64,000 nt of DNA from Aquipuribacter hungaricus (GTDB lineage Bacteria > Actinomycetota > Actinomycetes > Actinomycetales > JBBAYJ01). The notes under the pieces are model-generated. The model ran no database searches. It was not told where the DNA came from and saw only the letters and a list, made by a program, of their open reading frames with translations. The first letter of the stretch is position 1; each line of letters opens with the position of its first letter. Shown one piece after another: positions 18,413 to 41,955 of the stretch. Where the stretch lies: contig NZ_JBBEOI010000001.1 of assembly GCF_037860755.1 (NCBI RefSeq), positions 62,001 through 126,000 on the forward strand, written 5' to 3'. Position numbers and translations under genes: made by a program.

Positions 18413-18564
18413 CCTGTGGATAACGACTGCCGGGCGCGTTGACGAAGAACCCAGCCCGGCAGCAAACTTCCCTAGCGGAGGGCGTGGGATTCGAACCCAC
18501 GAAACGTTGTGGTTGAACGTTCAACGGTTTTCAAGACCGCCCGTTGTACCGCGTCTGACCTGCA
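18413..18564 (-). repeat. att-like repeat 2: 3' part of tRNA-Ser(UGA) with flanks
   Basis: Minus-strand bases 18540-18476 give the anticodon loop CTTGAAA (UGA), a variable arm with GAACGTT/AACGTTC pairing, T arm GTGGG-TTCGAAT-CCCAC and acceptor GCCCTCC-G. The 5' half is replaced by GACGCGGTACAACGG, homologous to the other copies. CCTGTGGATAACG starts 64 bases left of the acceptor strand, the same distance as in repeats 1 and 3, and contains a perfect DnaA-box consensus TGTGGATAA (18415-18423). It marks the left edge of the ubiquitin-like module. Confidence 0.8.
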
Positions 18565-19268: not shown

Positions 19269-19646
19269 ATGGGGATTCTCGATCGCATCGGCGGCTTCGT
19301 GACTGGGCTTAGCAGCAGCGGCAGTTCCGGTGAGACCTGCCCTGAGTGCGGTTCTCCGCTCCGCAGCGACGGTGGACCCGACGACCGGGGCACCGAGCGC
19401 TTTGAGTGCACGAGCGGCATTGGCGAGTGCGGCGAGCCTGTCTGGTTCCGCGAGAGCGGGGGACCACTTATCACCCCCTGGGCGCGCGGCGGCAGTGGCA
19501 GTCCCCAGCCATGCGAGTCGTGCCAGCAAGACATGTCGGGTTCGGAGATCACCGACGCAGGGGAGGACGGCGACAACAGCAACGCTTATGTCACCTGCCG
19601 TCACTGTGGGCACCAGAACGTGCAGTGGGGCTGGGGTGGCGACTAG
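19269..19646 (+). CDS. Small zinc-ribbon protein of unknown function
   Basis: A 125-residue protein with three cysteine pairs or clusters: CPECG near residue 24, CTSGIGEC around 47, CESCQ near 82 and CRHCGH near 110. The pattern suggests two zinc ribbons. Ribosome-binding site AGAGGA is eight bases before the ATG. The Gly/Ser-rich N-terminus has no signal. It points the same way as the sigma-like/Ubl operon 400 bases downstream and lies inside the same pair of att-like repeats, so it may belong to that module, but the family is not recognised. Confidence 0.6.
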   Translation: MGILDRIGGFVTGLSSSGSSGETCPECGSPLRSDGGPDDRGTERFECTSGIGECGEPVWFRESGGPLITPWARGGSGSPQPCESCQQDMSGSEITDAGEDGDNSNAYVTCRHCGHQNVQWGWGGD

Positions 19647-20049: not shown

Positions 20050-20994
20050 ATGAGCGTGCCCGATGAGCTGCGCGCGCTCGGGCACCTTGGTGGGCCCGCG
20101 ACGATAGCGATGCTCACCGCCCGGTTTCGTAGCGCCGTCCAGCCGTTCCCTACCCTGAAGCCTCCGGGCGGCTGGACGGCTGGGGCGCTTGAGGACGTCC
20201 TGCACGACTTTCTTGCCGAGAAACTCGAGGACCTCACAAACGCGGTGTTGACCGTCCGCGACGACGAGACCGCCACCCTCAAGGTCACGAGCCGCGTCAT
20301 GAAGCGCTGGCTCATCGACCAGGCTCGCAAGACCGACACCGGCGCGATCCGTGTTCGCCTCGAGGAACTCGTCCACGAAAGCGACCTGTTCGTGAAGCCG
20401 AACGGTCAGGGGGAACGCTGGGCGCTGGTCGGAGCGGAGCAGGTTAGTAGCGTCGACATCGAGAGCCTCGTCGCGGCCGCGAGGGCGGTGCCTGGGGTGA
20501 AGCCGGTGCGGTGGCGCGACGAGAACCGCCGGGCCCCGATGGCGAGCGGCCCGGACCTGCTCCGCGTCCTCGAGGCCGTCTTGGAACGCGCTGGGGGCAG
20601 CGTGGAGAGCGGCGTGCTGGTCACCGTATTTCAGCGCCGGTTCGGCGTGACCCTCACCTCGTTCGTGCCGCTCGAGGAGGACGACACCCTGCCTGAGCGG
20701 CTGGCTGAGCCGCCGGTGTTCAACTCCGTCGAGCTTGACGAGGCCGCGGTTCGCGCTGCGCAGGCGTACGCGCAGCTCAGCGATCGCGAGCGGCGCATCC
20801 TGCTTCACCTGCACGATCACCGCGCCGTGCAGGACGCCCTGGGGGTCGGACGCACCACGGCCTACACCCTTATCGGCAAGGTCAACGAGGCGTTGCAGGC
20901 TCTGGCCGGCCAGGACGTCGACCATGCGGCCGTCGCCGCCGCGCTCGTCCGACTCGCCGAGCGTGACTTCGGTGCATACGGCGACGACCCCTGA
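20050..20994 (+). CDS. Sigma-factor-like protein, first gene of the ubiquitin-like operon
   Basis: A 314-residue protein. Residues about 55-115 (LEDVLHDFLAEKLEDLTNAV then TSRVMKRWLIDQARKTDTGA) resemble sigma region 2 of ECF-type factors. The C-terminal part LSDRERRILLHLHDHRAVQDALGVGRTTAYTLIGKV looks like a sigma region 4 / LuxR-type HTH. The middle portion is unusual, about 120 residues longer than normal spacing. It may direct or activate transcription of the operon. No anti-sigma gene is present. The assignment is by pattern only. Confidence 0.6.
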   Translation: MSVPDELRALGHLGGPATIAMLTARFRSAVQPFPTLKPPGGWTAGALEDVLHDFLAEKLEDLTNAVLTVRDDETATLKVTSRVMKRWLIDQARKTDTGAIRVRLEELVHESDLFVKPNGQGERWALVGAEQVSSVDIESLVAAARAVPGVKPVRWRDENRRAPMASGPDLLRVLEAVLERAGGSVESGVLVTVFQRRFGVTLTSFVPLEEDDTLPERLAEPPVFNSVELDEAAVRAAQAYAQLSDRERRILLHLHDHRAVQDALGVGRTTAYTLIGKVNEALQALAGQDVDHAAVAAALVRLAERDFGAYGDDP

Positions 20995-21058
20995 ACGGAC
21001 GATGTCAGCGTTGCCACGTCAGATGCACCGTGACACAGAACTATGAGGGAGGTCAGCA

Positions 21059-21946
21059 GTGAGCGAGTACGAGTACCGACTGAGCGCCAAGCTCAGCAGC
21101 TACCGGGCTCCCGACGCACTGCTTGACGCCCTCGACCGCTCCGAGCAGCCCGACCCTGCTGTCGGGCAGATGTGGCGCGCCCACGTCGAGGGCACCGCCC
21201 TGCTCGTGCTCCTTCTCGACGAGTTCGCGAGCGGCTCCCTCGAGGTCGTCGTCGCCACTCCCGGCGAGACACCGCCGGTCGGCAGCGCCGTCGAGCACGT
21301 CGTCGCGCGAACCGACACTTACCAGCGGCTTACGGTGTGGCCCGGGCTGCGCGGTCCGCTGCACCAGCGCGTCCTCGACGTCCTCATCGAGGATTCCGCC
21401 GCCACGCAGGCACTCAGCACCACCCTGCGGACTCGTCCAAGAGCGGAGGCGCCGGTCGACGTGCTCGACCCGGGCGCTGAGCTGCTCGCCGAGCTGGGCG
21501 ATGACCTGCACACGCTGCAGGACGCACCTGCCGTGCCGGTCCGCCCGAAGAACCCCGCCAAGCTCAGCAGCCTTCTCCCCGGGGAGCCAGGGGCACAACT
21601 GACCCTCCTGATCGAGAGCCTAGAACTTGGGCAGCCGATCGCGATGGAGCTGCTGCGGAGCAAGCGTGAGCTAACCGACGCGCAGGCCCGCAGCCTCGAA
21701 CAGCGGCTCGGGCTCGCCAACGGCACCCTGCCCGCCGCAGGGGGCCTCGAGCCAGCACTAGTCGCCGAGGTCGAGCACCCCCGCTGGCGTTCGGCCGCGC
21801 GAACCCGCGCGCGACGCCAAGGCGTGCCGGAGGTTGAGGCCCGCACCAGCCTCGCCGCGGAGGCCTACGCCCTCGCCGCACGGGAGAGCACCAGCACACC
21901 CGACTGGCGCCAGCGGCTGTCGATCATCGTCGCGGGTGAGTCGTGA
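21059..21946 (+). CDS. Protein of unknown function with a possible HTH, partner of ImmA/IrrE peptidase
   Basis: A 295-residue protein, start GTG 21059 behind GGGAGGT. Not recognised. The first 150 residues are acidic and alpha/beta-like. Residues about 195-230 (AMELLRSKRELTDAQARSLEQRLGLANGTL) have the spacing of an XRE-type HTH. This would fit the common pairing of an XRE regulator with an ImmA/IrrE metallopeptidase, which is the next gene and overlaps by GTGA. Alternatively it is the substrate or adaptor of the conjugation system. Confidence 0.5.
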   Translation: MSEYEYRLSAKLSSYRAPDALLDALDRSEQPDPAVGQMWRAHVEGTALLVLLLDEFASGSLEVVVATPGETPPVGSAVEHVVARTDTYQRLTVWPGLRGPLHQRVLDVLIEDSAATQALSTTLRTRPRAEAPVDVLDPGAELLAELGDDLHTLQDAPAVPVRPKNPAKLSSLLPGEPGAQLTLLIESLELGQPIAMELLRSKRELTDAQARSLEQRLGLANGTLPAAGGLEPALVAEVEHPRWRSAARTRARRQGVPEVEARTSLAAEAYALAARESTSTPDWRQRLSIIVAGES

Positions 21947-22995
21947 CCCGTCCGTCGTTCGCTGCCCTGCGCCCGGCTACGCGCGAGCAGGCCGGTCGGA
22001 TGATCGCCCTCCTCGAGGCCACGGACCGTGACCTCCTTGATGCCCTCAGCACCGACCCGCTCGGTGCGCTCGCCGAGCACCCGGACGTGAACCTGCGGCT
22101 AGTGCCGGAAACCGACACCGGCGCCGGCTGCACCGTCGCTGGCGGGTACCGGCACAACGAGACACCCCCGGCGTTGCTGGTGACCGCGTCGCTGTCGCGG
22201 CGCAGGCAGGCGTTCACCGCCCTGCACGAGTACGGCCACCACCTGCAGCAGACCAACCTCGACCTCGGGGTCGCGCTGCTCGAGCACGACAGCGACGAAC
22301 AACTGGAAGAGGCGTCCTGCCAGGTCTTCGCCAGCCGTGTCCTGCTCCCCGACAGTCTAATCAGCAGCCTTACACCGCAGCGCGGCCCCGACGCGACCAC
22401 GGTCGCGGCGTACTACGACAGCAGCCGCGCCTCCCGCGCGGCCTGCTGTGTCCGGGCTGCGGAGCTCCTCGTCGGGGGCGGCGCCGTCGTGCTGTACCGG
22501 GAGGACGGAATCGTCGACGCGACCGCCAGCACCGGGCTCATCCCACCCGCCCGCGGCAGCAACCAGGCCAGCACCCCACTCGTGGCCCGGGCACTCTCCC
22601 GACCCGGTGAGACCGTCGAGCACGACCAGACGCACATCATCTACAGCACCGGCACGTCCGCACCGCTGTACGGGCAGGCGACGTGGGTCGACGGGTACGC
22701 AGTCGCCGTCTTGCAGCAGGACAACGCCAGCTGGAAGGCGTTCGCCCCGACCCGCACTGCCCCGGGCACCTACACCGGCCCGAGCAAGTTCCTCACCTGC
22801 GACGTCTGCCTGCAGGACTACATCCGCACCGACGACCTCTGCCGCACCTGTCAGACCCCGCGCTGCCCGAGCAGGCACTGCTCGTGCCCCATCAGCGCCC
22901 GCGAACGCCCCTGCCCCCGGTGCGGCCTCACCCTGCACAAGGCCCGGTACACGGCGTTCGACGACCCGACGACGCCCTGCCGCGACTGCGCCTAG
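21943..22995 (+). CDS. ImmA/IrrE-type zinc metallopeptidase with Cys-rich RING-like tail
   Basis: A 350-residue protein. The ImmA/IrrE peptidase domain shows HEYGH at residues 95-99 and a third-ligand candidate in EEASCQVFAS (122-130). The C-terminal 65 residues hold CDVC, CRTC, CPSRHCSC and CPRC, then CRDC: at least eight Cys plus His in treble-clef or RING-like spacing. Such binuclear zinc domains are known in prokaryotic ubiquitin-like operons. The domain could act as an E3-like or substrate-binding part, and the peptidase could process the Ubl or cleave a repressor. Overlaps the gene before it; a 101-base gap follows before the Ubl gene. Confidence 0.75.
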   Translation: MTRPSFAALRPATREQAGRMIALLEATDRDLLDALSTDPLGALAEHPDVNLRLVPETDTGAGCTVAGGYRHNETPPALLVTASLSRRRQAFTALHEYGHHLQQTNLDLGVALLEHDSDEQLEEASCQVFASRVLLPDSLISSLTPQRGPDATTVAAYYDSSRASRAACCVRAAELLVGGGAVVLYREDGIVDATASTGLIPPARGSNQASTPLVARALSRPGETVEHDQTHIIYSTGTSAPLYGQATWVDGYAVAVLQQDNASWKAFAPTRTAPGTYTGPSKFLTCDVCLQDYIRTDDLCRTCQTPRCPSRHCSCPISARERPCPRCGLTLHKARYTAFDDPTTPCRDCA

Positions 22996-23096
22996 CCCCG
23001 CGCCGGACGATCCGGCACTTCCTACGTCAGACCTCATCGAAGGGGCAGCAGCCCCACGTCCCCACCGGGACGAACGACTGATGAGGAGAACACAGC

Positions 23097-23399
23097 ATGA
23101 GCGCTCAGACGCACAACGAAAGCAGCAAGGACGACCACGGCAAGGGCAGCGACGAGACCGGGCGCCCGGTCACGTTCATCGTCAACGCCCGCGAGCACAC
23201 CACCAGCGCGAAGACCATGCCCTTTGAGCAGGTCGTCGCCCTGGCCTTCCCCGACACCCCGAGCGGCCCGAACGTGCTGTTCACCGTGTCCTACCGCCGC
23301 GGGCAGGGCAACAAGCCCGAGGGCTCCCTGCTCGCCGGTGACAGCGTCAAGGTCAAGGACGGGATGGTGTTCGTTGTCTCCGCGACCGACAAGTCGTAG
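23097..23399 (+). CDS. Ubiquitin-like (multiubiquitin-family) beta-grasp protein
   Basis: A 100-residue protein behind ATGAGGAG. The first 22 residues are polar and disordered (Ser, Lys, Asp, Gly). Then follows one beta-grasp domain of the multiubiquitin type: VTFIVNAREHTTSAKTMPFE, AFPDTPSG, FTVSYRRG, EGSLLAGDSVKVKDGMVF and VSATDK. Only one domain is present, whereas many relatives carry two or three. The C-terminus is DKS, without the di-glycine of eukaryotic ubiquitin, so either it is used unprocessed or the linkage differs. Its end overlaps the E1-like gene by 26 bases. Likely modifier of the operon. Confidence 0.8.
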   Translation: MSAQTHNESSKDDHGKGSDETGRPVTFIVNAREHTTSAKTMPFEQVVALAFPDTPSGPNVLFTVSYRRGQGNKPEGSLLAGDSVKVKDGMVFVVSATDKS

Positions 23400-24612
23400 C
23401 CGCGACCTCAAGCGGCTCATCGACGACGGCTACGACGTCGAGATTCGTGACGGGCACCTGCTCATCCACGGCGTGCCCTATGTGACCTCCACCATGGAGG
23501 TCGCGCTGGGCACGCTCGTGAGCACCCTCGACCTTGCCGGCGACGTCACAGTCACCCCGGGCACCCACGTCGCGATGTGGATCGGTGAGCACCCCTGCCA
23601 CGCCGACGGGACCGTCCTGCACGAGATTGCGCACGCGCCCGCGCCGGCCAGCGCGTCGCTGCAGATGCAGTGGAGCTTCTCCAGCAAGCCCGTCGGCAGC
23701 AGCGGCTACGCCAACTACCACGAGAAGATGACCACCTACATCGCGATGATCAGCGCCCCCGCGCTGGCCGTCTACCCGACCGTCACCGCCCGCACATACC
23801 CGGTGCAGCGGCCGGTCGGCGACCCGGCACCGTTCCTGTTCGAGGACACCTCCTCAGCCCGCGCCGGTCTCGGCGCGGTCACCGACAAGATCCGCGGGAT
23901 GAAGATCGCCATCGTCGGGCTGGGCGGCACCGGCAGCTGGGTCCTCGACCTTGTCGCCCGCTGTCCGGTCGGGGAGATCCACCTGTTCGACGACGACCGC
24001 TTCCTGCAGCACAACACGTTCCGCTCACCCGGCCCGACCTCGGTCGAGGAGCTGACCGGCGGCCCGTTCAAGGTCGACATCTACGCGAAGCGGTGGGCGG
24101 TCATGCGCACCGGCGTCATCGCGCACCCCGAGCGTCTCGGCCCGCAGCACACCAAGCTGCTCGCGCAAATGGACTTCGTGTTCGTCTGCGTCGACACCGG
24201 CGCCTCCCGACGCGGGGTCGTCGAGCTCCTCGAGCGGGTCGGGTGCGACTTCATCGACACCGGCATGGGGCTGCTGCTGGACGAGGACCGCGCCCAGGTT
24301 CTCGGGCAGGTCCGCACCACGCTCAGCACCGCCACCACCCGCGAGCAGGCCCGTCAGCACCTGCCGCTGACGGGCAGCCTCGCCGACGACATCTACGACC
24401 AGAACATCCAGACCAGCGAGATGAACGCGCTCAACGCCGTCGAAGCCGTGACCCGGTGGAAGAAGGCGGTCGGCTTCTACACGGACCTCGAGTGTGAGGG
24501 CAGCGCGACGTACGTCATCGACGGCAACCACATCGTCAACACCCCGGTCCGCCTCACGGACGCTGCGGCCGATGCGGGCGAGGGCGAGTCCCTGTTGGAC
24601 GGTGCGGCGTGA
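23374..24612 (+). CDS. E1-like ThiF adenylyltransferase with N-terminal DUF6791-like domain
   Basis: Start taken at TTG 23374 inside the Ubl gene, giving 412 residues; the upstream frame overlaps the Ubl too far to be real. Residues 10-145 resemble the domain found on ThiF proteins of multiubiquitin operons (DUF6791-like), including GEHPCHADGTVLHEIAH at 71-87. Residues 175-380 are the E1/ThiF fold: IAIVGLGGTGSWV (179-191), FDDDRFLQHNTFR with N214 and R217, VCVDTGASRR (271-280). No CxxC zinc site is present. Cys291 or Cys373 could carry a thioester; Cys75 is another candidate. It would adenylate the Ubl C-terminus. Overlaps the last gene by GTGA. Confidence 0.8.
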   Translation: MSPRPTSRSRDLKRLIDDGYDVEIRDGHLLIHGVPYVTSTMEVALGTLVSTLDLAGDVTVTPGTHVAMWIGEHPCHADGTVLHEIAHAPAPASASLQMQWSFSSKPVGSSGYANYHEKMTTYIAMISAPALAVYPTVTARTYPVQRPVGDPAPFLFEDTSSARAGLGAVTDKIRGMKIAIVGLGGTGSWVLDLVARCPVGEIHLFDDDRFLQHNTFRSPGPTSVEELTGGPFKVDIYAKRWAVMRTGVIAHPERLGPQHTKLLAQMDFVFVCVDTGASRRGVVELLERVGCDFIDTGMGLLLDEDRAQVLGQVRTTLSTATTREQARQHLPLTGSLADDIYDQNIQTSEMNALNAVEAVTRWKKAVGFYTDLECEGSATYVIDGNHIVNTPVRLTDAAADAGEGESLLDGAA

Positions 24613-25022
24613 TCGCGCAGATCCGGCCCGTCCTCGTCACCACGGTCCCGGCGCAGCCCGAACCGGGCGTGCTTTACGTCTCGGTCGAATACGCCACCAC
24701 GCTGCACCTGTGCGCCTGCGGCTGCGGCCACGAGGTCGTCCTCGGCATCTCCCCGCACGACTGGACCTTGAATTGGGACGGCGAGACCGTGAGCCTGGAC
24801 CACTCCGTCGGGAACTGGAGCTTCCCGTGCCAGTCGCACTACTGCATCCGCCGCAACCGGATCGTCCGGGCGGGCCCGTGGACCGACGAGCAGATCACCC
24901 GCGGGCGAGCCCGCGACGCCGCCTTCCGGCGCGGGAACCCCACACCAGCCGTGCCCGACGTGCCGTCCGCCCCCAGCGGCAGCTGGCTGTTGCGCTGGCT
25001 GCGCCGGCTCCCGCACCGCTGA
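24609..25022 (+). CDS. DUF6527-like small protein, last gene of the ubiquitin-like operon
   Basis: A 137-residue protein starting at GTG 24609. It has a Cys/His set CACGCGHEVV, then SLDHSVGNWSFPCQSHYCIRRNRIVRAGPW, the conserved pattern of DUF6527 proteins, which occur beside E1 and multiubiquitin genes. The paired Cys/His residues suggest one bound zinc. The biochemical role is not established to my knowledge. Overlap with the E1 stop and the strong hairpin 33 bases after its stop mark it as the operon's end. Confidence 0.75.
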   Translation: MIAQIRPVLVTTVPAQPEPGVLYVSVEYATTLHLCACGCGHEVVLGISPHDWTLNWDGETVSLDHSVGNWSFPCQSHYCIRRNRIVRAGPWTDEQITRGRARDAAFRRGNPTPAVPDVPSAPSGSWLLRWLRRLPHR

Positions 25023-25054
25023 CACCTGCAACGGGCCGCCCTTAAGGGCAGCGG

Positions 25055-25085
25055 AGGCTCCTCGCCGTAGCGCGGCGAGGAGCCT
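25055..25085 (+). terminator. Strong hairpin terminator after the ubiquitin-like operon
   Basis: A perfect 13-bp stem, AGGCTCCTCGCCG / CGGCGAGGAGCCT, with a 5-base loop TAGCG. It sits 33 bases past the stop of the DUF6527-like gene. There is no U-tract, which is usual for actinobacterial terminators. It insulates the module from the sequence downstream. Confidence 0.8.
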
Positions 25086-25525
25086 CACGCATCGTGAGTG
25101 CCCGGGCACGGAGGAGCACACGGGGCACGGTCGCGTGGGATGCGGGCCGGCGCTGGGGTGCCCGTCTGCAGTCCTCAGACACTTGCCGCACCGCTTGTTG
25201 AGTAGACCGGGACTGCTGTGTCAACGACGGCCGAAATTGAAGGGACTGCTGCACGGAAAGGTGACACCTGACCTCTGACGCTCACGGCGCCTGCCACCCG
25301 CTGATCGGCACAGCTCCGTCCCGGACTGCCCCCTGCAGAGACGGGCCTTGCGGGTCTCAGCCGACAAGCAGAGGCAGATGGGACCCCTTGTCTCCTGCGC
25401 CCGAACCAACTGCAGGACTGCTCCCCGCGGCGCGGACCAGTCGACGGGTCCACAGGCTTCCCGGTCGCCAGCGCACGCTGCACATCGCCCCGACGGCGAC
25501 CACCGTCGTCGTCGTGGTGCGTACG

Positions 25526-25677
25526 CCTGTGGATAACGGCTAGCCGTGCGTTGACGACTCCACCGCGCGGCGGCAGAGTCGTCTTCAGCGGAGGGCGTGG
25601 GATTCGAACCCACGGAACGTTTTGGTTGAACGTTCAACGGTTTTCAAGACCGTCCGCTGTACCGGCTGTGACCTGCG
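25526..25677 (-). repeat. att-like repeat 3: 3' part of tRNA-Ser(UGA) with flanks
   Basis: Minus-strand bases 25653-25589 encode the anticodon stem/loop ACGGT-CTTGAAA-ACCGT, the variable arm (GTTGAACGTTCAAC), the T arm and acceptor GCCCTCC-G. The 5' half is replaced by CAGCCGGTACAGCGG. CCTGTGGATAACGG starts 64 bases left of the acceptor strand, with a perfect DnaA-box consensus (25528-25536), followed by CGTTGACGACTCCAC shared with repeat 1. It closes the 7-kb ubiquitin-like module opened by repeat 2. Confidence 0.8.
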
Positions 25678-29824: not shown

Positions 29825-32185
29825 ATGGCCACACACCTGACCGACACGCTGCAGGTGGAGGGGATGCTCCGGTCGTCCTCGGAGCCCGCCGTCACCCGCA
29901 GCCTGAGACGCCGACCTGGTGTCCTAGCGGCTGACACCAACGCGGTGTCGCAGACCGCGACCGTCACCTACGACCCGTCGCAGACGTCGCTCGAGGAGCT
30001 GTCCGGCTGGGTGAGGGAGTGCGGCTACCACTGCGAGGGCCGCTCGGTCCCCGATCACGTCTGCGACCCCATGAGCGATAGCCACTCCCGCCCTCCGGCC
30101 GACGGACCGCAGGACGCCATGGGTCACGGCGAGCACGGTGGCGGCCACCACGGCGGGATGTCGATGGCCGCGATGGCCAGGGACATGCGCAACCGCTTCG
30201 TCGCCGCCGCGGTCCTGTCCGTGCCGATCCTGCTGTTCTCCCCCATCGGGCGCGAGGTGCTTGGTTTCACCGCCGCCACGCCGTTCGGGCTGCGCGACGA
30301 CGTGCTCTCGCTCCTGCTGTCCCTGCCGGTCATCTTCTACAGCGCGTGGATCTTCTACGACGGCGCCTGGCGGGCGCTGCGCGCGCGGACCCTGGACATG
30401 ATGGTGCTGGTCGCCGTCGCGGTGAGCGCGGGCTGGCTCTACAGCCTCGGCGTGACCCTGACCGGCGGCGGCGAGGTCTTCTACGAGGCCGCCACCGTCC
30501 TCACCGCGTTCGTCCTGCTGGGTCACTGGTTCGAGATGCGCGCCCGCGGCGGGGCCAACGACGCGATCCGCTCGCTCTTGCAGCTCGCGCCGCCGATGGC
30601 GGTCGTCCTGCGCGGGCCCGACAGGCAGGAGCAGGTCGAGGTCCCGACGGCCGAGGTCGTCGTCGGCGACGTCGTCCTGGTCCGCCCCGGCGCGAAGATC
30701 CCGGTGGACGGGGTCGTCGTGCACGGCGAGTCCGAGGTCGACGAGTCGATGGTGACGGGCGAGAGCCTGCCCGTGGCCAAGTCCGAGGGCTCCGACGTCA
30801 TCGGGGCATCGGTCAACACCACCGGGACGCTCCGGGTCCGGGCCAGCAAGGTGGGCTCCGACACGGCGCTCGCGCAGATCGTGGCGATGGTGCAGGAGGC
30901 GCAGAACAGCAAGGCCCCCGGGCAGCGCCTCGCCGACCGCGCCGCGTTCTGGCTGGTCCTCGTCGCCCTCGTCGGCGGGGCGCTGACGTTCGGCGTCTGG
31001 TTCGCCGCTGGCGCCGGTGTGGAGATGGCCCTGCTCTTCGCGATCACGGTGGTGGTCATCACCTGCCCCGACGCGCTGGGGCTGGCCACCCCGACCGCGA
31101 TCATGGTCGGCTCTGGCTTGGGCGCCCGACGCGGGGTGCTGTTCAAGAACGCGACCGCGCTGGAGACCTCGGCGCGCATCGACACCGCCGTCATGGACAA
31201 GACCGGCACCCTCACACTCGGCAGGCCCGAGGTCACCGACGTGGTCGTCATCGGCTTGGCCGAGCCGGACGTCCTCCGCCTGGTCGCGGCGGTCGAGCGC
31301 GAGTCCGAGCACCCCCTCGCTGGTGCTGTCGTCGCGTACGCAGAGGGACGAGGGGTCCCCTCTGCCGTGGCCGCAGACTTCCGAAACGTGCCGGGGCACG
31401 GCGCCGTCGCCACCGTCGAGGGCCGCAGGGTCCTCGTCGGCAACCGCCGCCTGATGGCGGCCCAGGGCGTCGAGCTCGGCGAGCTCGCCGCCCACCGGGA
31501 CGACCTGTCAGCTTCCGGTCGCACCGCCGTTCTCGTAGCTGTGGACGGCGCGGCCGTCGCGGTCGTCGCCATGGCCGACGCGGTCCGGCCCAGCGCCGCT
31601 GCGGCCGTCGCGGCGCTGCACGAGGCCGGCGTCCAGGTGGTGATGCTCACCGGTGACAACGAGCAGACCGCGCGCCGGATCGGTGACCAGCTCGGCATCG
31701 ACACGGTCATCGCGGAGGTGCTCCCCGGGGACAAGGCCGCCGAGGTCTCCCGGCTCCAGGGCGCGGGCCGGCGGGTCGCCATGGTCGGCGACGGCGTCAA
31801 CGACGCCCCTGCGCTCGCCCAGGCCGACCTCGGCGTCGCCATCGGCGCCGGCACCGACGTCGCCATCGAGACCGCCGACGTCGTCCTTATGCGCTCCGAC
31901 CCGCTCGACGTCGCCACGGCGCTGCGGATCGGCCGGGGCACCCTGCGGAAGATGCGGCAGAACCTCGGCTGGGCGATCGGCTACAACGCCATCGCCCTGC
32001 CTATCGCGGCAGGGGTGTTCGAGCCGGCCTTCGGGCTGGTCCTGCGCCCGGAGATCGCGGCGCTGTCCATGTCCGGCTCCAGCGTCCTGGTCGCCGTCAA
32101 CGCCCTGCTGCTCAAGCGGCTGCGCCTTCCGGAGCCCGCGGACGCGGTGAGGGCAGGGTCCCGACCGGTCACCGAGGCCAGATGA
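29825..32185 (+). CDS. Heavy-metal P1B-type ATPase (copper-type, CPD variant)
   Basis: A 786-residue ATPase. The N-terminal 75 residues form an HMA-like domain that lacks CxxC: GMLRSSSE stands at the usual metal loop. A His/Met/Gly-rich linker [14 protein letters not shown] precedes the eight-helix transporter core. The transmembrane metal motif is CPD at 414-416 rather than CPC. The phosphorylation site is D458 in DKTGTLT; TGES, HPLAGA (the HP motif) and GDGVNDAP are intact. The CsoR-like operator argues for copper. Overlaps the SGNH hydrolase gene by ATGA. Confidence 0.9.
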
Positions 32186-32934
32186 GGACGCGGGCGACGA
32201 ACCATGACGAGCCGGTGACCCGGACGGTGAGCAGGTGGCGGCGGCACCCCGTCCTGACCGCGGCCGGGTGCCTGCTGCTGCTGACGGTCGTAATCGTGGT
32301 CTTCCGGGCCGTCGGCACCCAGCAGAGCGTCGCCCGGACACGGGCGTACTGGTCCGAGCCGCAGGGCGAGCCGGACGGGCTGCTCTACGTCGCCCTCGGC
32401 GACTCCGCCGCCCAGGGCGTGGGTGCGAGCAGCCCTGACAAGGGATACGTTGGCCTGCTCGCCGAGCGGCTGCGCACCAGCACCGGCCGGCCCGTCCAGG
32501 TGGTCAACCTCAGCGTCTCCGGCGCCCGCGTGGCCGACGTGGTCGAGGAGCAGCTGCCCCAGCTCGAGGGACTGGAGCCGGACCTCGTCACGGTGGCCAT
32601 CGGGGGCAACGACGTCCGCCGCTACGAGACTGACCGCTTCGCCGCCGACGTCGACCGCCTCGTCGCCGGGCTCCCGCCAGGGACCTACGTCGCGGACGTC
32701 CCGTACTTCATGCACGGTCGCTGGGAGACGGACTCCGCGCAGGCGGCCGGCACGGTACGGACGGCAGCGGGCGAGGCCGGACTGGTCGTGGTGCCCCTCA
32801 ACGACCGGCTCCGCGCCGAGGGTTTCCGCGGGATGTTCACCCAGACCTCGGGCGACCTGTTCCACCCCAACGACCGGGGGTACGAGATCTGGACGGACGC
32901 GTTCTGGACGGAGATCTGCCGCTCGTCGCTGTGA
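32182..32934 (+). CDS. Membrane-anchored SGNH/GDSL hydrolase
   Basis: A 250-residue protein with an N-terminal hydrophobic anchor ([17 protein letters not shown], about residues 27-43). SGNH blocks: [13 protein letters not shown] (block I with catalytic Ser), [11 protein letters not shown] (II), [11 protein letters not shown] (III) and [12 protein letters not shown] (V, with the catalytic Asp/His position). Extracytoplasmic lipase or esterase activity is expected. It is coupled to the metal ATPase by ATGA, an arrangement whose logic is unclear. Confidence 0.85.
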
Positions 32935-32959
32935 CGACGGGCCGCGGGACAGCGTGCGT

Positions 32960-33820
32960 CTAGCGAGCCTGCTCGTCCTGCGGTGCGTGCTCCACGGTGG
33001 TCTCGCGACCGGGCCGCAGCCGGGCGCTGACGGCGATGTAGACCACGGCCAGCACGACGACGAGCAGGGCGACGAGCTGGTTCACGCGCAGCCCCAGCAC
33101 GATATTGGCCTCGTCGGTGCGCAGCAGCTCCAGCGCCGCGCGAGCGGTGCCGTACATCGCCAGGTAGAGCGCGAAGGCCCGGCCGTGGCCGAGGCGGAAC
33201 CGCCGGTCGGCCCACATGACCACCACCGCGGTGAGGAGGCTCCACAACGACTCGTACAGAAACGTGGGGTGGAAGGTCTCCGCCTCCGGGTAGGCCGCCG
33301 GCCGGTTCTCCGGATTGATCCGCAGGCCCCACGGCAGGGTGGTCGGCGTGCCGTAGATCTCCTGGTTGAAGTAGTTCCCCCACCGCCCGAACGCCTGCCC
33401 GACCGCCATCCCGGGAGCCAGCGCGTCGGCGAACGCAGGCAGCGGGATCCCGCGTCGGCGGCAGGCGAACCAGGCCCCGAGCGCTCCCCCGAGCAGTCCC
33501 CCGAAGATGGCCAGGCCGCCCTCCCACAGCCGGAGCGCCTCCCACGGGTCCTGCCAGGTGTAGTCCTGCAGGTGGGTGAGGACGTGCCACACGCGGGAGC
33601 CGACGATGCCTGACGGGACCGCCCAGGTCAGGACGTCGACGACGGTGCCCGGGCGGCCACCCCTGGCGATCCATCGCCGGTCCGCCAGACAACCGCCGGC
33701 GAAGATGCCGGCGATGATGAACAGTGCGTAGGCCCGGACCGGGACGACCCCGAGGTACCAGGTCCCCTGCGGAGGGCTTGGGATCCCGGGGTCGGCCGCG
33801 AGGGCGAGGAGCCCGGTCAC
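32960..33820 (-). CDS. lgt: Prolipoprotein diacylglyceryl transferase
   Basis: A 286-residue Lgt from GTG 33820. About seven hydrophobic helices are present. Signature GMAVGQAFGRWGNYFNQEIYG contains the R and N residues of the Lgt motif, and FHPTFLYESLW the conserved H and Y. It transfers diacylglycerol to the lipobox Cys of prelipoproteins in the membrane. The neighbourhood encodes several lipoproteins (34775, 35683, 37853, 38363), so it may be a second, cluster-specific copy; whether another lgt exists elsewhere cannot be seen. Confidence 0.9.
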   Translation of the reverse strand: MTGLLALAADPGIPSPPQGTWYLGVVPVRAYALFIIAGIFAGGCLADRRWIARGGRPGTVVDVLTWAVPSGIVGSRVWHVLTHLQDYTWQDPWEALRLWEGGLAIFGGLLGGALGAWFACRRRGIPLPAFADALAPGMAVGQAFGRWGNYFNQEIYGTPTTLPWGLRINPENRPAAYPEAETFHPTFLYESLWSLLTAVVVMWADRRFRLGHGRAFALYLAMYGTARAALELLRTDEANIVLGLRVNQLVALLVVVLAVVYIAVSARLRPGRETTVEHAPQDEQAR

Positions 33821-34251
33821 GAGGACCTCCTCGACCAGACGGCCAGCATCCACGTGTAGAGCAGCACCGCGGAGCAGGCGAGGACCAGCCACGTGCGGTC
33901 GCCGCCGGGGACGTAGTGGCTGCTGATGTGGCCGAGGAAGACGTCCATCCACCGGTAGTGCGGCACGCCGGCCCGGAACATCAGGTCCGGCGCCATCGCC
34001 ACCATGTGGAAGCCGAGGACGGAGAAGAGCTGCGCGGGCGCGGGCCGTCCCCGGACCCGCAGGTACGCCGCGTTCCAGGCCACGGTGGCGATCACCCCGA
34101 CCAAGAAGTGGGTGGACCAGTGGAACGAGGCGTCGTGGCCGGTGTAGGTCCGGTAGAGGACCACCTCTGCGGCGACGAGCCCGACCGCCTGCAGCGCGAG
34201 GCTCGCCGGGCGCAGGCAGCGCGGGCACGCCCGTCCGGTCACCCGGGTCAT
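33817..34251 (-). CDS. Small multi-pass membrane protein of unknown function
   Basis: A 144-residue protein from ATG 34251. It begins with CPRC (VTGRACPRCLRPASL), a possible zinc or disulfide pair, followed by about four hydrophobic helices (AVGLVAAEVVLY, FLVGVIATVAWNAAYL, LFSVLGFHMVAMAPDLMF, WLVLACSAVLLYTWMLAVW) and His residues between helices (GHDASFHWSTHF, GHISSHYVPGG). It overlaps both neighbours by four bases. The histidines might bind metal. Not recognised. Confidence 0.7.
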   Translation of the reverse strand: MTRVTGRACPRCLRPASLALQAVGLVAAEVVLYRTYTGHDASFHWSTHFLVGVIATVAWNAAYLRVRGRPAPAQLFSVLGFHMVAMAPDLMFRAGVPHYRWMDVFLGHISSHYVPGGDRTWLVLACSAVLLYTWMLAVWSRRSS

Positions 34252-34775
34252 GAGGTGGCTCCCACGATGGTGTCGACCTCGAACGCGTTGTCGGGCCAGG
34301 CCGGGTCGAGGGTGGAGTAGCGGACCACGCCTTCGGTGTCGACGACGGCGTAGCCGATGCCCGGGCCTCCGTCGACGGGCTCGGGCAGGTCCACGGCGTG
34401 TGCGAGGCGTCCGACCTCGTCCACGACCAGGTCGACGCCCGCCGCCGCGGCCGCGGACGCGGGGCCGCTGGAGGTGGCGCCGGGCTCCTGCACGACCAGG
34501 ACGACGTGGGCCGCGGCGGGCAGCGTGCCGCGCCAGTCCTGCAGGACGTCCCCCTCGGGGGCGGCCCGCACGAACAGCAGCACCGTGGGGCCCCGCCCGC
34601 GGGTGAGCCCCGGCAGGGACGGCTCGACAGTCGGCCAGCTCAGCAGCAGGCCGTTGCGCTGGTTGGCGCGGTCCGGCTGGTCCCGCGGCCCGGGACCGCG
34701 GGAGCCCACGAGCACCGCCGCCACGAGCAGCAGGCACATCAGCACCCCCCCGACGGCGACGCTCGTGGGGCGCAT
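34248..34775 (-). CDS. Secreted or anchored protein with possible thioredoxin-like fold
   Basis: A 175-residue protein from ATG 34775 with an N-terminal hydrophobic segment (VGGVLMCLLLVAAVLVG). The remainder, TVLLFVRAAPEGDVLQDWRGT, HVVLVVQEPGA, VDEVGRLAHAVDL and GIGYAVVDTEGVVRYSTLD, has the order of a peroxiredoxin/TlpA-like fold, but no CxxC is found. The upstream gene's stop and this ATG share TGATG. Role unknown. Confidence 0.55.
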   Translation of the reverse strand: MRPTSVAVGGVLMCLLLVAAVLVGSRGPGPRDQPDRANQRNGLLLSWPTVEPSLPGLTRGRGPTVLLFVRAAPEGDVLQDWRGTLPAAAHVVLVVQEPGATSSGPASAAAAAGVDLVVDEVGRLAHAVDLPEPVDGGPGIGYAVVDTEGVVRYSTLDPAWPDNAFEVDTIVGATS

Positions 34776-35683
34776 CACGGCATGCCGGCCACGTCCGCGA
34801 GGACGGTCCACGTCCCGCCGTCCAGGCGGAGGACCTCCTCCGCCGTCGCGGCCAGCAAGGTGCCGTCGGCCGACGCGGAGAACGCGGTCGGCGGCGCCCC
34901 GATCGACCCCTGCGACACCCAGGCGTCCCCGGCGAGGTCCCAGACCACGCCCTCCACGTCTACCCCGGTCACGGTCGGTCCCGCGCCCTCGACGTGGACA
35001 AGGGTGGTGGGTGGGGCCGGGGCGAACGCCTCGAACGTACGACCCGAGTCCCGGCTGACGAGCAGGCCGTCCGCGGTCGTCGCCAGAAGGCCCGCGCCGT
35101 CACGCAGGTGCTCCAGGTCGGCGACCACGTCCAGCTCGGCGCCCACCGCCCAGGAGCGCCCGCCGTCGCCGCTGGTGAGCACCGCGCCCGAGAGGCTGTC
35201 CCACCCGACGACCTCCTCGCCGGACACCGTCAGGGCGTGGAAGTCCGCGTCCCCCTGCAGCGACACGGCGGTCCAGGTCTCACCGGCGTCGGAGCTCTCG
35301 ACGAGGCCCAGGTGGGACGGGAGCCCCTCGCGGGCGTCGGGGTGGCCGCTGCCCAGCAGGCGGTCCCCGTCGATGGTGAAGCCCATGGTGTCCTGACGGC
35401 GGTCGGCGACCCGCTGCGGCTCTGCACCATCCTTCACGCGGAACAGGCCGGTGTGGGTCGCCACGAGGACGTCGCCGCTGGCCCGGTCGACCCCGAGCCC
35501 GTGGACGTGACCCATCCCGGGGTCGTCGGTGGCACCGGAACGGTCGGCGGCGGCCGTGCCGCCCGTGCCCTCCTGCTCGCCCGAGCACGCGGCGAGCAGG
35601 AGGACGGCGACCGCCCCGAAGGCGGTCCGGGCGACGACCGGCCGCAGGCCCGCTGACGGGCGAGAGCGGTCCTGGGGTCGCAT
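34775..35683 (-). CDS. Exported lipoprotein with BNR/sialidase-like repeats (F510_1955-type)
   Basis: A 302-residue lipoprotein. Signal peptide with lipobox LLAAC near residue 33, then repeated beta-propeller elements: GMGHVHGLGVDRASGDVLVATHTGLF, SSDAGETW, TSGDGGRSW, SRDSGRTFEAF. These Asp-box repeats resemble the F510_1955 glycosylhydrolase-like family, often next to DUF305 genes. The HVHGL motif may bind metal. No proven enzymatic activity. Its ATG overlaps the DUF305 stop (TGATG). Confidence 0.8.
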   Translation of the reverse strand: MRPQDRSRPSAGLRPVVARTAFGAVAVLLLAACSGEQEGTGGTAAADRSGATDDPGMGHVHGLGVDRASGDVLVATHTGLFRVKDGAEPQRVADRRQDTMGFTIDGDRLLGSGHPDAREGLPSHLGLVESSDAGETWTAVSLQGDADFHALTVSGEEVVGWDSLSGAVLTSGDGGRSWAVGAELDVVADLEHLRDGAGLLATTADGLLVSRDSGRTFEAFAPAPPTTLVHVEGAGPTVTGVDVEGVVWDLAGDAWVSQGSIGAPPTAFSASADGTLLAATAEEVLRLDGGTWTVLADVAGMP

Positions 35684-36312
35684 CAGGAGTCGAGCAGGTC
35701 CTGCATGCGGGCGATCTCCGACTCCTGGGTGTCGACGATCGCCTGCGCGAGCTCCTTCGCCGCGGGGTTCTGCCCCTCGTCGTGCTCCGTCTCGGCCATG
35801 GCCACGGCACCCTCGTGGTGCTCGACCATCATCGACAGGAACATCTCGTCGAAGGCAGCACCCTCGGCCGTCTCGAGCTCGGCCATCTGCTCCGGGCTCA
35901 TCATCCCGGCCATGCCGCCGCTGTCCATGCCCTCCATCTCCATGGACATCTCCATGTCCTCGGCGGGCACCTCGGCGCCCCACGCCTCGAGGAACGCGGT
36001 CATGGTGAGGATCTCGGGCTCCTGGGCCGCGGCGATCTCCTCGGCCAGCGCGAGGACCTCGGGGTCCTCGGCCCGGTCGAGCGCGAGCTCGGACATCTGC
36101 ACTGCCTGCCGGTGGTGGGGGAGCATCCCCTGGGCGAAGGTGACGTCAGCCTCGTTGTTCTCTCCCTCCACCTGCTCGGCGGTGGTGGGCAGGTCGGCGG
36201 GGGTCGCCCCGCCTGCGGTCTCGGTGGCGGCGTCCCCACCGCAGGCAGCGAGGACGATGGACAGGGTCACGGCAGCCGTCAGGGCTGCCGCACCGCGAAG
36301 CGGCGTGGTCAT
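35683..36312 (-). CDS. DUF305-family lipoprotein
   Basis: A 209-residue lipoprotein with lipobox LAAC near residue 24. DUF305 motifs: DVTFAQGMLPHHRQAVQMSELAL with the HH pair, and MFLSMMVEHHEGAVAMAE with a second HH. Between them is a Met-rich run (MEMSMEMEGMDSGGMAGMM), a typical copper-binding composition. The family is ferritin-like and linked to periplasmic metal handling. First of a five-gene run to Lgt. Confidence 0.9.
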   Translation of the reverse strand: MTTPLRGAAALTAAVTLSIVLAACGGDAATETAGGATPADLPTTAEQVEGENNEADVTFAQGMLPHHRQAVQMSELALDRAEDPEVLALAEEIAAAQEPEILTMTAFLEAWGAEVPAEDMEMSMEMEGMDSGGMAGMMSPEQMAELETAEGAAFDEMFLSMMVEHHEGAVAMAETEHDEGQNPAAKELAQAIVDTQESEIARMQDLLDS

Positions 36313-36378
36313 GGGTGGTGCTCCTCAGGTCATGGGTGGGTGTGCGAGCGCAGGCGTCGACAGACGCCGTGGCGTCGG

Positions 36379-36843
36379 CTACACCCGGATGACGCAGAGG
36401 GCGATGCGGGGAGGGGGTGGAGCAGGGGCGTGGTCGCCCACCCAGGACACGACACGGGCGACGGTGACCCGCGACCGGCCCACGACGAGCGGGCCGCGTC
36501 GGCTGAGCAGGTGCGCCAGCGTCAGGACGGCGATGCCCACGAGAGCCACCACGCACCCGGCCAGCAGGTCGTGGTGGTCCGCGGGGTGCGGCGACGGCGG
36601 CGGTGCGCCGTTCGACCCCGGCTGCGGGGTGTCCCCTGCGGCAGGGGCATCCACGAGCGTCGTCATCACCGGGTCGGCGGGGTGACCCCAGGCGTGGCCG
36701 CCCGAGACGGACACGCCCGACTCGGCCGACACGGTCCCCGTGCTCTGCTCGTCCGCACCCGCGGACACGGCGAAGAACCCATGCATCGTGAGGAAGCCGG
36801 CGACGAGGACCACGAGCAACGCCAGACGACCCGGCAGGGTCAT
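36379..36843 (-). CDS. DUF6153-family secreted/membrane protein
   Basis: A 154-residue protein. The N-terminal signal or anchor LALLVVLVAGFLTMHGFFAVSAG is followed by a His/Pro-rich stretch (GHAWGHPADP and SPHPADHHDL) and a second helix LLAGCVVALVGIAVLTLAHLL. This matches DUF6153, found with DUF305 genes in actinobacteria. It probably sits at the membrane and may bind copper through His. Sixty-six bases separate it from the DUF305 gene. Confidence 0.75.
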   Translation of the reverse strand: MTLPGRLALLVVLVAGFLTMHGFFAVSAGADEQSTGTVSAESGVSVSGGHAWGHPADPVMTTLVDAPAAGDTPQPGSNGAPPPSPHPADHHDLLAGCVVALVGIAVLTLAHLLSRRGPLVVGRSRVTVARVVSWVGDHAPAPPPPRIALCVIRV

Positions 36844-37162
36844 CTGGGTCTCTCGCGGTCGTGGTCGTCGCACACGTCGAGGGTACGACTGCGTGAGGTG
36901 ACCGCGAACTGGGTCAGACCTACCCCATGGCGCCGCGCCTCGACCAGCGCGGCGACGGCATGGTGATCGTGCGGCGCCGCCGCGCCGGTCGGCGCCCGTC
37001 ATTGCTGCGTCTGGTGCCTCGGACGCGCCGACGTCACGTAGGCGTCGGTGCACGGCAGCCGGTGTCCGGGTCCGCACATCCAGCGAGGAGCCGCCCGGCA
37101 GCCGAGCGGGACCCGGACCGCGACGCCCGGGTCCCGCCATCAGCGCGTCTGCCGGCCTGCGG
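36844..37162. other. Intergenic stretch with no clear gene
   Basis: Three hundred bases between two leftward genes. No frame shows a domain or start with a ribosome-binding site. It should hold the promoter of the DUF6153-DUF305-Lgt run, but no consensus is evident. Confidence 0.35.
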
Positions 37163-37732
37163 TCAGCTGTGCCCGGGGGCGGTGCACTGCGATCCGCCCT
37201 GCTCGGGTTCACGGCAGCCGCCGTCACCGGTGATCTCGCCAGGGGCGGCCGCGGTGAAGGTGCCGCCGGCGGGGTTGGGTGCGCCGGTCCGGGTCGCCTG
37301 CGCGACCACGGTCCCTGAGGAGTCCAGCAGCTGGGCGACCGCGAGGGCACGCAGCTCGAGGAAGCTGCCGGTGCAGGTGCCGGTCCCCGTAGCGGTGGCG
37401 GTGAACGTGCAGATGGTCCGGTCGCGGCTGCCGGGGACCACCTCTGCGTCCCCCTCGCCCCGCTTGACCACCACCGAGTACGCGACGCCGGCATCCAGGC
37501 CGGTGAAGCGCAGCGACTGCTGCCAGAGCGAGGTCTCCTCGGAGTCGCCCGAGGCGCCCTTGACGTAGTTGATCCGGCCGCCTCCGTCGGCGCTGGACGA
37601 GCCGACGGCGTCGAAGTCCAGGCGGTTGCTGCTCTCGTGCGCAGCCGACGCGGTGGGGGCCAGGGCGAGGACGGGCAGGGCGGCCAGGAGGGCCACCGCG
37701 CTCAGGCGCCGGGTGTGTCGCAGGACGTTCAT
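37163..37732 (-). CDS. Secreted protein of unknown function
   Basis: A 189-residue protein with a signal peptide (VALLAALPVLALAPTASAA, cleavage after ASA at about residue 30). The mature part is Gly/Ser/Thr-rich and beta-like, with INYVKGASGD, YSVVVKRGEGDAE and TICTFTATATGTGTCTGSF, which includes a Cys pair likely to form a disulfide. No family recognised. It lies among copper-type secreted proteins. Confidence 0.7.
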   Translation of the reverse strand: MNVLRHTRRLSAVALLAALPVLALAPTASAAHESSNRLDFDAVGSSSADGGGRINYVKGASGDSEETSLWQQSLRFTGLDAGVAYSVVVKRGEGDAEVVPGSRDRTICTFTATATGTGTCTGSFLELRALAVAQLLDSSGTVVAQATRTGAPNPAGGTFTAAAPGEITGDGGCREPEQGGSQCTAPGHS

Positions 37733-37852
37733 GGGGTCTCCAGGTGAGGGGTGAGGGGTATGCGGTCATGCACTGACACGGACGGTTCGGAGGATCGGTT
37801 CAGCCACGGCCGGTCGGGGTCCGGGACGGGGAGGACGTCGAGGGTCCGGGCG

Positions 37853-38347
37853 TCAGCCCACGCTCAGGGTGAGCATCTGCATGACCGGCATCTCGCCGTC
37901 GAGCACGGGCAGGTCGGCCCCCTCGACCGCAAGGAACTCGTACTCGCCGGGCGTCGTGTCATCGACGTGCAGCATCGGCCAGTAGTCCCCGGTGAGCACC
38001 GGCTCGTCCAGCTCGACCACGAGGTCGGTGGTGGATCCCTGCTCCACCTGCAGCGTCCCTACGACCGGGCCGGGCTTGCCGTCCAGGTCCTGGTGGACAG
38101 CGATCCAGCCCTGCTCCGCCCCCGCGAGCTCGACGGAGGCGACGGTCAGGGTCGTGCCGTCGCCGGACTGGTCTTCGGCGGTGACCGCACCCGTGACCGC
38201 ACCGGCGGCGGGGGCTGAGGCTGGGGCGGGGCTGGCCGATGGGGCGGCGGGGCTGCTGGCGGCACCGGTGTCGTCGGTGCCGCAGGCGGCGAGCCCTGCG
38301 ACGAGCATCAGGCCGAGCGCGACGGTGCGGGTCGTGGTCCGGGTCAT
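37853..38347 (-). CDS. Lipoprotein of unknown function
   Basis: A 164-residue lipoprotein: lipobox GLAACG near residue 21, then an Ala/Pro/Ser linker and a beta-rich domain with VASVELAGAEQGWIAVHQDLDGKPGPVVG and DYWPMLHVDDTTPGEYEF. This pattern (WIAVHxD, MLHxD) recalls the DUF7282-type domain of secreted proteins that occur with cupredoxins. It is followed after 15 bases by the cupredoxin gene in the upstream direction. Confidence 0.75.
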   Translation of the reverse strand: MTRTTTRTVALGLMLVAGLAACGTDDTGAASSPAAPSASPAPASAPAAGAVTGAVTAEDQSGDGTTLTVASVELAGAEQGWIAVHQDLDGKPGPVVGTLQVEQGSTTDLVVELDEPVLTGDYWPMLHVDDTTPGEYEFLAVEGADLPVLDGEMPVMQMLTLSVG

Positions 38348-38362
38348 GCGTGGTCTCCTTGG

Positions 38363-38758: not shown

Positions 38759-38955
38759 GGTGAGAGACACGGACCGTGGGTCCAGATGGTTCACCGGCCC
38801 GACGGTGAACCACCGAAGGTCCTGAGCCGTGTCTCCTGCCGAGACCGCTCCCCACCACCCGGAGGCACCATGGCCCTCGTGCTCCGTGTCACGACGTCCG
38901 CGAGCCCGGCGGACCTGACCGGCGCCCGCCCCGTGGCGCACCGCGACCCCAGCCG

Positions 38956-41838: not shown

Positions 41839-41955
41839 CCCGACACCGTAGGACCGTGCCCCCCGGACCTCCGGCTGCAGGAGATAGCGAGCCGCGCCGG
41901 ACCGTGGCAGCGTCGACGCTCCACGGTGGAGGGCGACGCCCGGGAGGCGGTCGAG

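Follow-up and report, generated by a model that had tools for sequence, protein, structure and literature searches.

A putative portable controller with paired DNA elements in front of exchangeable immune operons in actinobacteria

Six closely spaced genes were analysed in a 64,000-nucleotide stretch of the Aquipuribacter hungaricus genome (contig NZ_JBBEOI010000001.1, positions 62,001 to 126,000), here called the window. The first three encode a sigma-factor-like protein (G1), a protein with a predicted MazF fold and an XRE-type HTH (G2) and an M78 metallopeptidase (G3), and the last three encode a ubiquitin-like protein (Ubl), an E1 enzyme and a DUF6527 protein. All six open reading frames showed a strong GC3 codon bias. 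The features and the evidence for each of them are collected in the table. The first-pass annotation had described these six genes followed by a strong hairpin, and this observation was confirmed.

Table. Features of the locus; positions are those of the window.
Position	Strand	Feature	Evidence
18475-18563	-	tRNA-Ser(TGA), left boundary of the cassette	ARAGORN; 90-nt repeat, 92% identical to the right boundary
20050-20994	+	G1, sigma-factor-like protein, 314 aa; sigma2-like N-terminal and sigma4-like C-terminal helices with a long insert between them	No Pfam family; AlphaFold2 model (pLDDT 81) matches sigma32 8hkc (E 0.04), sigmaA and SigL sigma4 3hug (prob 0.92) best; family members match PHROG sigma factors at 1.1e-4 and 0.005
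20997-21020	+	Control element copy 1, GGACGATGTCAGCGTTGCCACGTC (GGAC-N16-CGTC), just after the G1 stop and 38 nt before G2	Rank 1 of 127,948 positions with a PWM trained on other loci only
21059-21946	+	G2, predicted MazF-fold N-terminal domain, XRE/cI-type HTH and C-terminal helices, 295 aa; probable substrate of G3	No Pfam family; AlphaFold2 model (pLDDT 85) matches MazF structures, prob 0.99-1.00; family profile matches HigA 1.2e-4 and lambda cI 0.0025 in the HTH
21943-22995	+	G3, M78 (ImmA/IrrE/CapP-like) metallopeptidase, LHEYGHHLQ active site, C-terminal Cys-rich zinc tail, 350 aa	Pfam Peptidase_M78 4e-11; PADLOC capP 2.8e-13; family profile vs IrrE 3dte 2.9e-14 and CapP 7t5t 7.6e-7; HExxHH invariant and most tail cysteines at least 90% conserved in 27 sequences
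23005-23028	+	Control element copy 2, GGACGATCCGGCACTTCCTACGTC (GGAC-N16-CGTC), 68 nt before the Ubl gene	Rank 3 of 127,948 positions; same place as in 20+ other loci
23097-23399	+	Ubl, single multiubiquitin (beta-grasp) domain, 100 aa, ending in ATDKS instead of Gly-Gly	Pfam Multi_ubiq 2.4e-17; best PDB match 9cd2, a multi-ubiquitin-domain protein, 1.9e-9; terminal Ser in 14 of 14 Ubls compared
23374-24612	+	E1, DUF6791 + ThiF adenylating enzyme, 412 aa from the inferred TTG start	Pfam DUF6791 1.2e-48 and ThiF 2.1e-14; BubCD 1.3e-8; invariant Cys75 in DUF6791 and no invariant Cys in the ThiF part in 14 E1s
24609-25022	+	DUF6527 protein, 137 aa, invariant HxCxCGCG ... CxSHY (probable metal site)	Pfam DUF6527 1.2e-19; invariant residues in 11 sequences
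25051-25090 (about)	+	Strong hairpin, probable transcription end of the operon	-56.6 kcal/mol for the 88-nt stretch; z = -5.5; 0 of 200 shuffles as good
25588-25676	-	tRNA-Ser(TGA), right boundary of the cassette	ARAGORN; repeat of the left boundary

The E1 start is best put at TTG 23374. Nine other loci from several phyla overlap the Ubl and E1 genes by exactly 26 nt, and 23374 is the codon that gives this overlap here. The flanking repeats, which had been taken as att-like, are complete tRNA-Ser(TGA) genes. A third full copy is found at 4233-4320 and a partial one at 45846-45903, whereas no tyrosine integrase lies inside the cassette or elsewhere in the window.

The Ubl is a true beta-grasp relative. 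The order Ubl, DUF6791-ThiF E1 and DUF6527 was found in nine or more other loci. Such operons, often with upstream regulators, are common on plasmids of many phyla. This part of the locus therefore belongs to a known, widespread Bub-related type and is not new in itself.

To study the first three genes, we compared their neighbourhoods in other genomes. The order G1-G2-G3 was kept in about 25 actinobacterial loci, on plasmids as well as on chromosomes, and also in the held-out genome G282. A further genome, G135, was the M. crocinum plasmid already used and gave no independent test, and genome G409 has a G1 relative only. The genes behind the trio differed. Besides Ubl-E1-DUF6527, we observed Ubl-E2-E1 (BubCD-like), type II CBASS (cyclase 8.6e-167, E2 5.8e-80, 1TM effector 5.7e-72), FRG and DUF3892 payloads. 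Among viral contigs, only three remote M78 matches were found, without G1, G2 or the DNA element described below. In the literature searched, no description of this trio was found.

We then asked whether the trio and the payload share a control sequence. Shared words between the region upstream of G1 and the gap before the payload showed nothing consistent, but a second copy of the element proved to be at the G1/G2 junction. The element occurs before G2 and before the payload. When scored with PWMs trained without the locus in question, the two sites ranked 1 and 2 of about 42,000 positions, in either order, in 19 of 21 loci. In the window, the second site ranked third, behind one unrelated site at 44288. 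The word GGACGAT-N13-CGTCA occurs exactly twice in the 4.3 Mb of this genome, at these two places, and the reversed control occurs 0 times. The contiguous 24-mer identity between the two window sites was not significant (15/24, 96 of 100 shuffles as good), and the case for the window rests on the bipartite pattern and on the PWM from other loci. G282 has its own two-copy word at these places (16/20, 2 of 200 shuffles). However, the loci numbered L022, L040, L041 and L043-L046 lack a recognisable element, and in several loci site 1 lies in the coding 3' end of G1, so that part of its conservation could be protein-driven. On the G3 tree, the element class changes once and the payload at least eight times.

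The class A elements look like ECF-sigma promoters with the hallmark AAC/CGT (PMC8103513). They have an AC-type -35 box and a CGT -10 box at fixed spacing, and GGAC-N16-CGT[CT] was present in 15 of 18 sites, the exceptions being both sites of L025 (TGTC) and site 1 of L026 (GGAT). The class B elements are one block without the clear -35/-10 split. G1 is only weakly sigma-like by sequence and fold, with a best Foldseek E of 0.04 and a Pfam r4 match of 0.048 in one member, and its linker is far longer than in ECF sigmas. At the syntenic place in L021 sits a protein with Sigma70_r2 and r4, but the profile comparison of G1 with this protein gave only E 0.03.

Taken together, our results suggest a two-part defence cassette, consisting of a portable transcriptional controller (G1-G2-G3 with two copies of its own DNA element) and an exchangeable payload, which is here a Ubl-E1-DUF6527 conjugation operon. 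In this model, to which we give a probability of about 0.7, G2 would keep the two elements silent at rest, either by holding the sigma-like G1 or by occupying the DNA, with the MazF fold as a sensor or dimer domain. On DNA damage or phage attack, G3 would be activated, probably by single-stranded DNA by analogy with IrrE/PprI (PMC10904395) and CapP (PMC13373217), and would cleave G2. G1 with RNA polymerase would then fire both elements and raise G2-G3, for feedback and reset, together with the payload. The E1 would adenylate the Ser-ended Ubl and probably pass it over Cys75 of DUF6791 onto targets, and DUF6527 would process or remove it. The conserved trio, the two-site element and the payload exchange are shown by the computational comparison, whereas the sensing of damage, the activation of G3 and its cleavage of G2, the protein that reads the element and the conjugation chemistry with its Ubl-target adducts are inferred.

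It remains possible, although we regard this as somewhat less likely than not, that the trio is a cytoplasmic sigma switch for bacterial immunity. A dedicated alternative sigma factor, held by a MazF-XRE partner that a DNA-damage-activated metallopeptidase destroys, would drive exactly two promoters, that of its own feedback genes and that of whatever immune operon has been plugged in behind it. The controller and its promoter would then evolve together and swap payloads between CBASS, Ubl conjugation and other systems.

The interpretation in the first-pass annotation was only partly supported. It was right on a Ubl-E1-DUF6527 conjugation operon with upstream sigma-like, HTH-like and ImmA/IrrE genes in a tRNA-flanked cassette without an E2 or JAB gene. 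However, it had joined all six genes in one system and missed the paired DNA element. The trio also stands in front of CBASS and other payloads that have no Ubl, so it is a separable controller and not part of the conjugation machine. The zinc tail of the peptidase is not an E3-like RING of this system, as it is conserved in the CBASS-linked loci too.

A tentative alternative is that G2 is a plain repressor of the CapH/DdrO kind that binds the two elements as operators and is cleaved by G3, whereas G1 is an accessory or anti-repressor that does not read them. The trio would then be a CapH+CapP variant with an extra gene. The XRE/cI-type HTH of G2 and the CapP/IrrE-like G3 correspond to the classical repressor-protease pair, and in seven class A loci GGAC-N12-GTCC is a partial dyad. 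However, the dyad symmetry is weak throughout, and the window, L016 and L024 lack the GTCC half but keep GGAC-N16-CGTC. G1 is as constant a member of the module as G2 and G3 and is conserved in nearly all loci, and no housekeeping -10 is apparent by eye between element and gene. It is unlikely that the trio is a toxin-antitoxin-like unit that merely neighbours defence genes. The predicted MazF fold, from which RNase activity could only be inferred, and the frequent TA pairs in defence islands would fit, but the element directly precedes payloads of different kinds close behind G3, and gene order and orientation with the payload are constant. A single six-gene conjugation system, with the zinc tail of G3 as an E3-like RING and G1 as its specific target or regulator, is suggested by the tight spacing but is very unlikely, since the same trio with its tail fronts CBASS and DUF3892 loci, the weak PDB matches of the tail are FYVE-type zinc fingers, and Ubl-E1-DUF6527 operons elsewhere use other controllers (HTH+ImmA/IrrE, WYL) or none of these.

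The controllers of immune operons known so far, CapW, CapH+CapP and CapK+CapS, work by derepression. The trio would be a further family, specific to Actinomycetota as far as searched, that may use a dedicated sigma factor. Since unlike payloads share the controller and its element, the element can serve as a signpost to unknown defence genes. The poorly understood Ubl-E1-DUF6527 operons are also given a predicted trigger, DNA damage or phage attack, in an experimentally usable setting.

CapH+CapP, which controls CBASS and Bub operons (PMC13373217 and references there), likewise has an HTH protein beside an M78 peptidase before immune operons. The trio differs from it by the extra conserved sigma-like gene, the predicted MazF-fold N-terminus of the HTH protein, the C-terminal zinc tail of the peptidase and the two-copy element before G2 and payload, and was found here only in Actinomycetota. 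CapK+CapS (PMC13373217) also has two binding sites, one inside the controller and one before the payload, and fronts Bub, CBASS and others, but consists of kinase/STAS proteins. No STAS/GHKL kinase pair and no WYL domain, as in CapW, was found in G1-G3. IrrE(PprI)-DdrO of Deinococcus (PMC10904395) has a peptidase related to G3 and an HTH protein as presumed substrate, but there it serves a DNA-damage regulon and here one dedicated two-site regulon. ECF sigma/anti-sigma pairs (PMC8103513) resemble the trio in the class A element and in a partner gene that lies next to the sigma-like gene and is itself behind the element. However, G1 is diverged with a long insert, and the partner is an XRE protein, not a known anti-sigma, which an M78 peptidase would release.

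We also tested by hhalign whether DUF6791 is an E2-like domain. The comparison with CBASS E2s and Prok-E2_E found nothing, but the E2-E2 control also failed, and the HxxxxxGxxPC motif with the invariant Cys75 is only suggestive. The Bub operon of Citrobacter (BubCD, PDB 9eav, 9ea4) shares the multiubiquitin Ubl and the ThiF E1, and BubCD is the best PDB match of the E1. In the window, the E1 has DUF6791 instead of the N-terminal part of BubCD, no E2 gene is present and a DUF6527 gene is added. The layout with a separate E2 gene and an E1 with a long non-DUF6791 N-terminal part was found behind the trio in L017, L020 and L023.

To verify the six genes, the ORFs were first examined for coding bias and compared with Pfam. 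All six ORFs exist at the given coordinates (20050-25022) and show a strong coding bias. Pfam named four of them as Peptidase_M78, Multi_ubiq, DUF6791 with ThiF, and DUF6527, whereas genes 1 and 2 (G1 and G2) matched no family. The strong hairpin following gene 6 was also confirmed. The repeats that the first-pass annotation had described as att-like are whole tRNA-Ser(TGA) genes 7.1 kb apart. The observation of the six-gene cluster therefore held. Its interpretation as a ubiquitin-like conjugation operon together with a sigma-like factor and a peptidase was only partly supported, since genes 4 to 6 are of this type but genes 1 to 3 were also found in front of other kinds of genes.

The start of the E1 gene was placed at TTG 23374. 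In Tritonibacter, Acidiphilium, Klebsiella, Runella, Acinetobacter, Mesorhizobium, Leptolyngbya and two actinobacterial loci (numbered L038 and L042 in our comparison of loci) the Ubl and E1 genes overlap by exactly 26 nt, and this overlap predicts the TTG codon. The last Ubl codons are therefore double-coding in loci from several phyla. The coordinates of the features discussed here are collected in the table.

Coordinates of the features discussed in this section, in the window unless stated otherwise
Position	Strand	Feature
4233-4320		tRNA-Ser(TGA)-like copy
18475-18563		tRNA-Ser(TGA) gene, one of the pair first described as att-like
19269-19646	+	125-aa protein with two Cys pairs of zinc-ribbon type, inside the tRNA-flanked cassette and upstream of G1
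23029-23096		Leader between the element and the payload start, with a small hairpin
23374-23399		Overlap of the Ubl and E1 genes
25588-25676		tRNA-Ser(TGA) gene, the other of the pair
44288	-	Further class A-like site (score 17.3)
45846-45903		tRNA-Ser(TGA)-like copy
G000:C1:139681-145136		Locus L086, listed with the recurring tRNA-Ser(TGA)-like copies

To study how common the Ubl-E1-DUF6527 genes are, plasmid records were searched with the E1. Relatives were found in 149 plasmid records of many phyla, usually beside multiubiquitin and often beside DUF6527 genes. They stand under other controllers, such as HTH with ImmA/IrrE in Tritonibacter or a WYL protein in Acidiphilium, or behind UvrD-helicase genes. 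The relatives in the PDB are Citrobacter BubCD for the E1 (1.3e-8) and the multi-ubiquitin protein 9cd2 for the Ubl (1.9e-9). A survey counts 544 Bub operons, which may or may not include the DUF6527 type, and of these 219 have CapW or CapH+CapP and 59 have CapK+CapS (PMC13373217). The Ubls of the window and of L002, L017, L020, L023, L029, L038, L042 and L048-L053 were then compared. In all 14 the last residue is Ser without the usual terminal Gly-Gly, also where the E1 gene does not overlap. In 14 E1s the only invariant cysteine is Cys75 in DUF6791, and DUF6527 keeps HxCxCGCG ... CxSHY. We conclude that this half of the locus is of an already known type. Bub operons have not been shown to protect against phage (PMC13373217).

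The searches with genes 1 to 3 led elsewhere. On actinobacterial plasmids and in 26 further loci of GTDB genomes the same three genes mostly stand in the same order, whereas the genes that follow vary. Ubl-E1-DUF6527 was found in L019, L029, L036, L038, L039, L042 and the window, and Ubl-E2-ThiF of the BubCD layout in L017, L020 and L023. Type II CBASS with cyclase, E2 and 1TM effector was found in L016, L018, L022, L024-L028 and L031-L035, with PADLOC E-values down to 8.6e-167. FRG followed in L041, and DUF3892 without E1 in L030 and L037. In L019, L030, L036-L039 and L047 a DUF3892 gene sits directly behind the class B form of the DNA element described below, either alone or before the Ubl genes, and may be an unknown effector or accessory protein.

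The peptidase G3 is nearest to IrrE and CapP and has a Cys-rich tail that is conserved in all groups. G2 has an N-terminus with a predicted MazF fold and an XRE HTH. G1 is sigma-like, although this assignment is weak. It is supported by fold matches to sigma32, sigmaA and SigL sigma4, by scattered sigma matches in family members and by a syntenic protein with Sigma70_r2 and r4 in L021. The structure models rest on only 20-22 sequences. Strong G1 matches occurred in 4 of 396 sampled genomes of the phylum, the genome of the window included. We found no description of the three genes in a literature search confined to open-licence papers, which is not a proof of novelty, and it remains possible that earlier surveys filed the G2-G3 pair under CapH+CapP without the sigma-like gene.

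We also examined the gap between G3 and the payload, and a conserved DNA element was found there. Each locus was scanned with a matrix trained on the other loci. This site came first in 21 of 24 loci, and the best other site was nearly always at the G1/G2 junction. When both sites of the other loci were included in the training, the two ranked 1 and 2, in either order, of 30,000 to 42,000 positions in 19 of 21 loci. The exceptions were the window (1 and 3 of 127,948) and L016 (1 and 12). In the window the class A-like site at 44288 ranks between the two operon sites, but it lies over an ORF and may be due to chance. The diverged loci L040, L041 and L043-L046 as well as L022 lack a recognisable element, and in several loci site 1 overlaps the coding end of G1. 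Between the element and the payload start a small hairpin was observed in several loci of different sequence.

The elements fall into two classes. Class A is GGACGAT-N12-TGTCCCGTCA with a fixed GGAC-N16-CGTC, whereas class B is GAGTTACGTCGTCYGTCCCAGGTGA and is not split into two boxes. In the host genome GGACGATN13CGTCA occurs exactly twice, at these two places, and never in the reversed control. However, this pattern was chosen after both sites had been seen, so the unbiased test is the matrix scan trained with both sites. On the G3 tree class A lies in one fully supported clade, and the element class needs one change whereas the payload needs eight. A held-out genome (G282) has the three genes before Ubl-E1-DUF6527 and, at the same two places, a different shared word around GCGCGTTGAA (16/20, 2 of 200 shuffles). 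Taken together, each controller carries its own two-site address, and the payload is exchanged behind it.

The conserved gene order, the paired sites and the exchange of payloads come from sequence comparison, whereas the mechanism is inferred without experimental data. M78 peptidases of this kind cleave HTH repressors when activated by single-stranded DNA, as described for PprI/IrrE (PMC10904395) and CapP (PMC13373217), and we infer that G3 cleaves G2. The class A element has the layout of ECF promoters with AAC and CGT boxes (PMC8103513) and only a weak dyad symmetry, which favours reading by the sigma-like G1 over a palindromic operator. However, the XRE HTH of G2 favours the operator, and it remains possible that either protein reads the element. 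One site before G2-G3 and one before the payload would make a self-resetting switch, as in CapK+CapS, where CapS binds before capS and before the payload (PMC13373217).

The tRNA-Ser(TGA)-like copies recur along the contig and also in two sister genomes, in the loci L082-L089 of G001 and G002. Contig 5 of G002 has eight or more copies over 127 kb and contig 16 of G001 has three. In all three genomes orthologous tyrosine recombinases of about 465 aa, 75-81% identical, lie 4-9 kb from one more diverged tRNA-Ser(TGA), which is perhaps the resident gene. This looks like an integron-like array of tRNA-bounded cassettes, of which the Bub cassette would be one.
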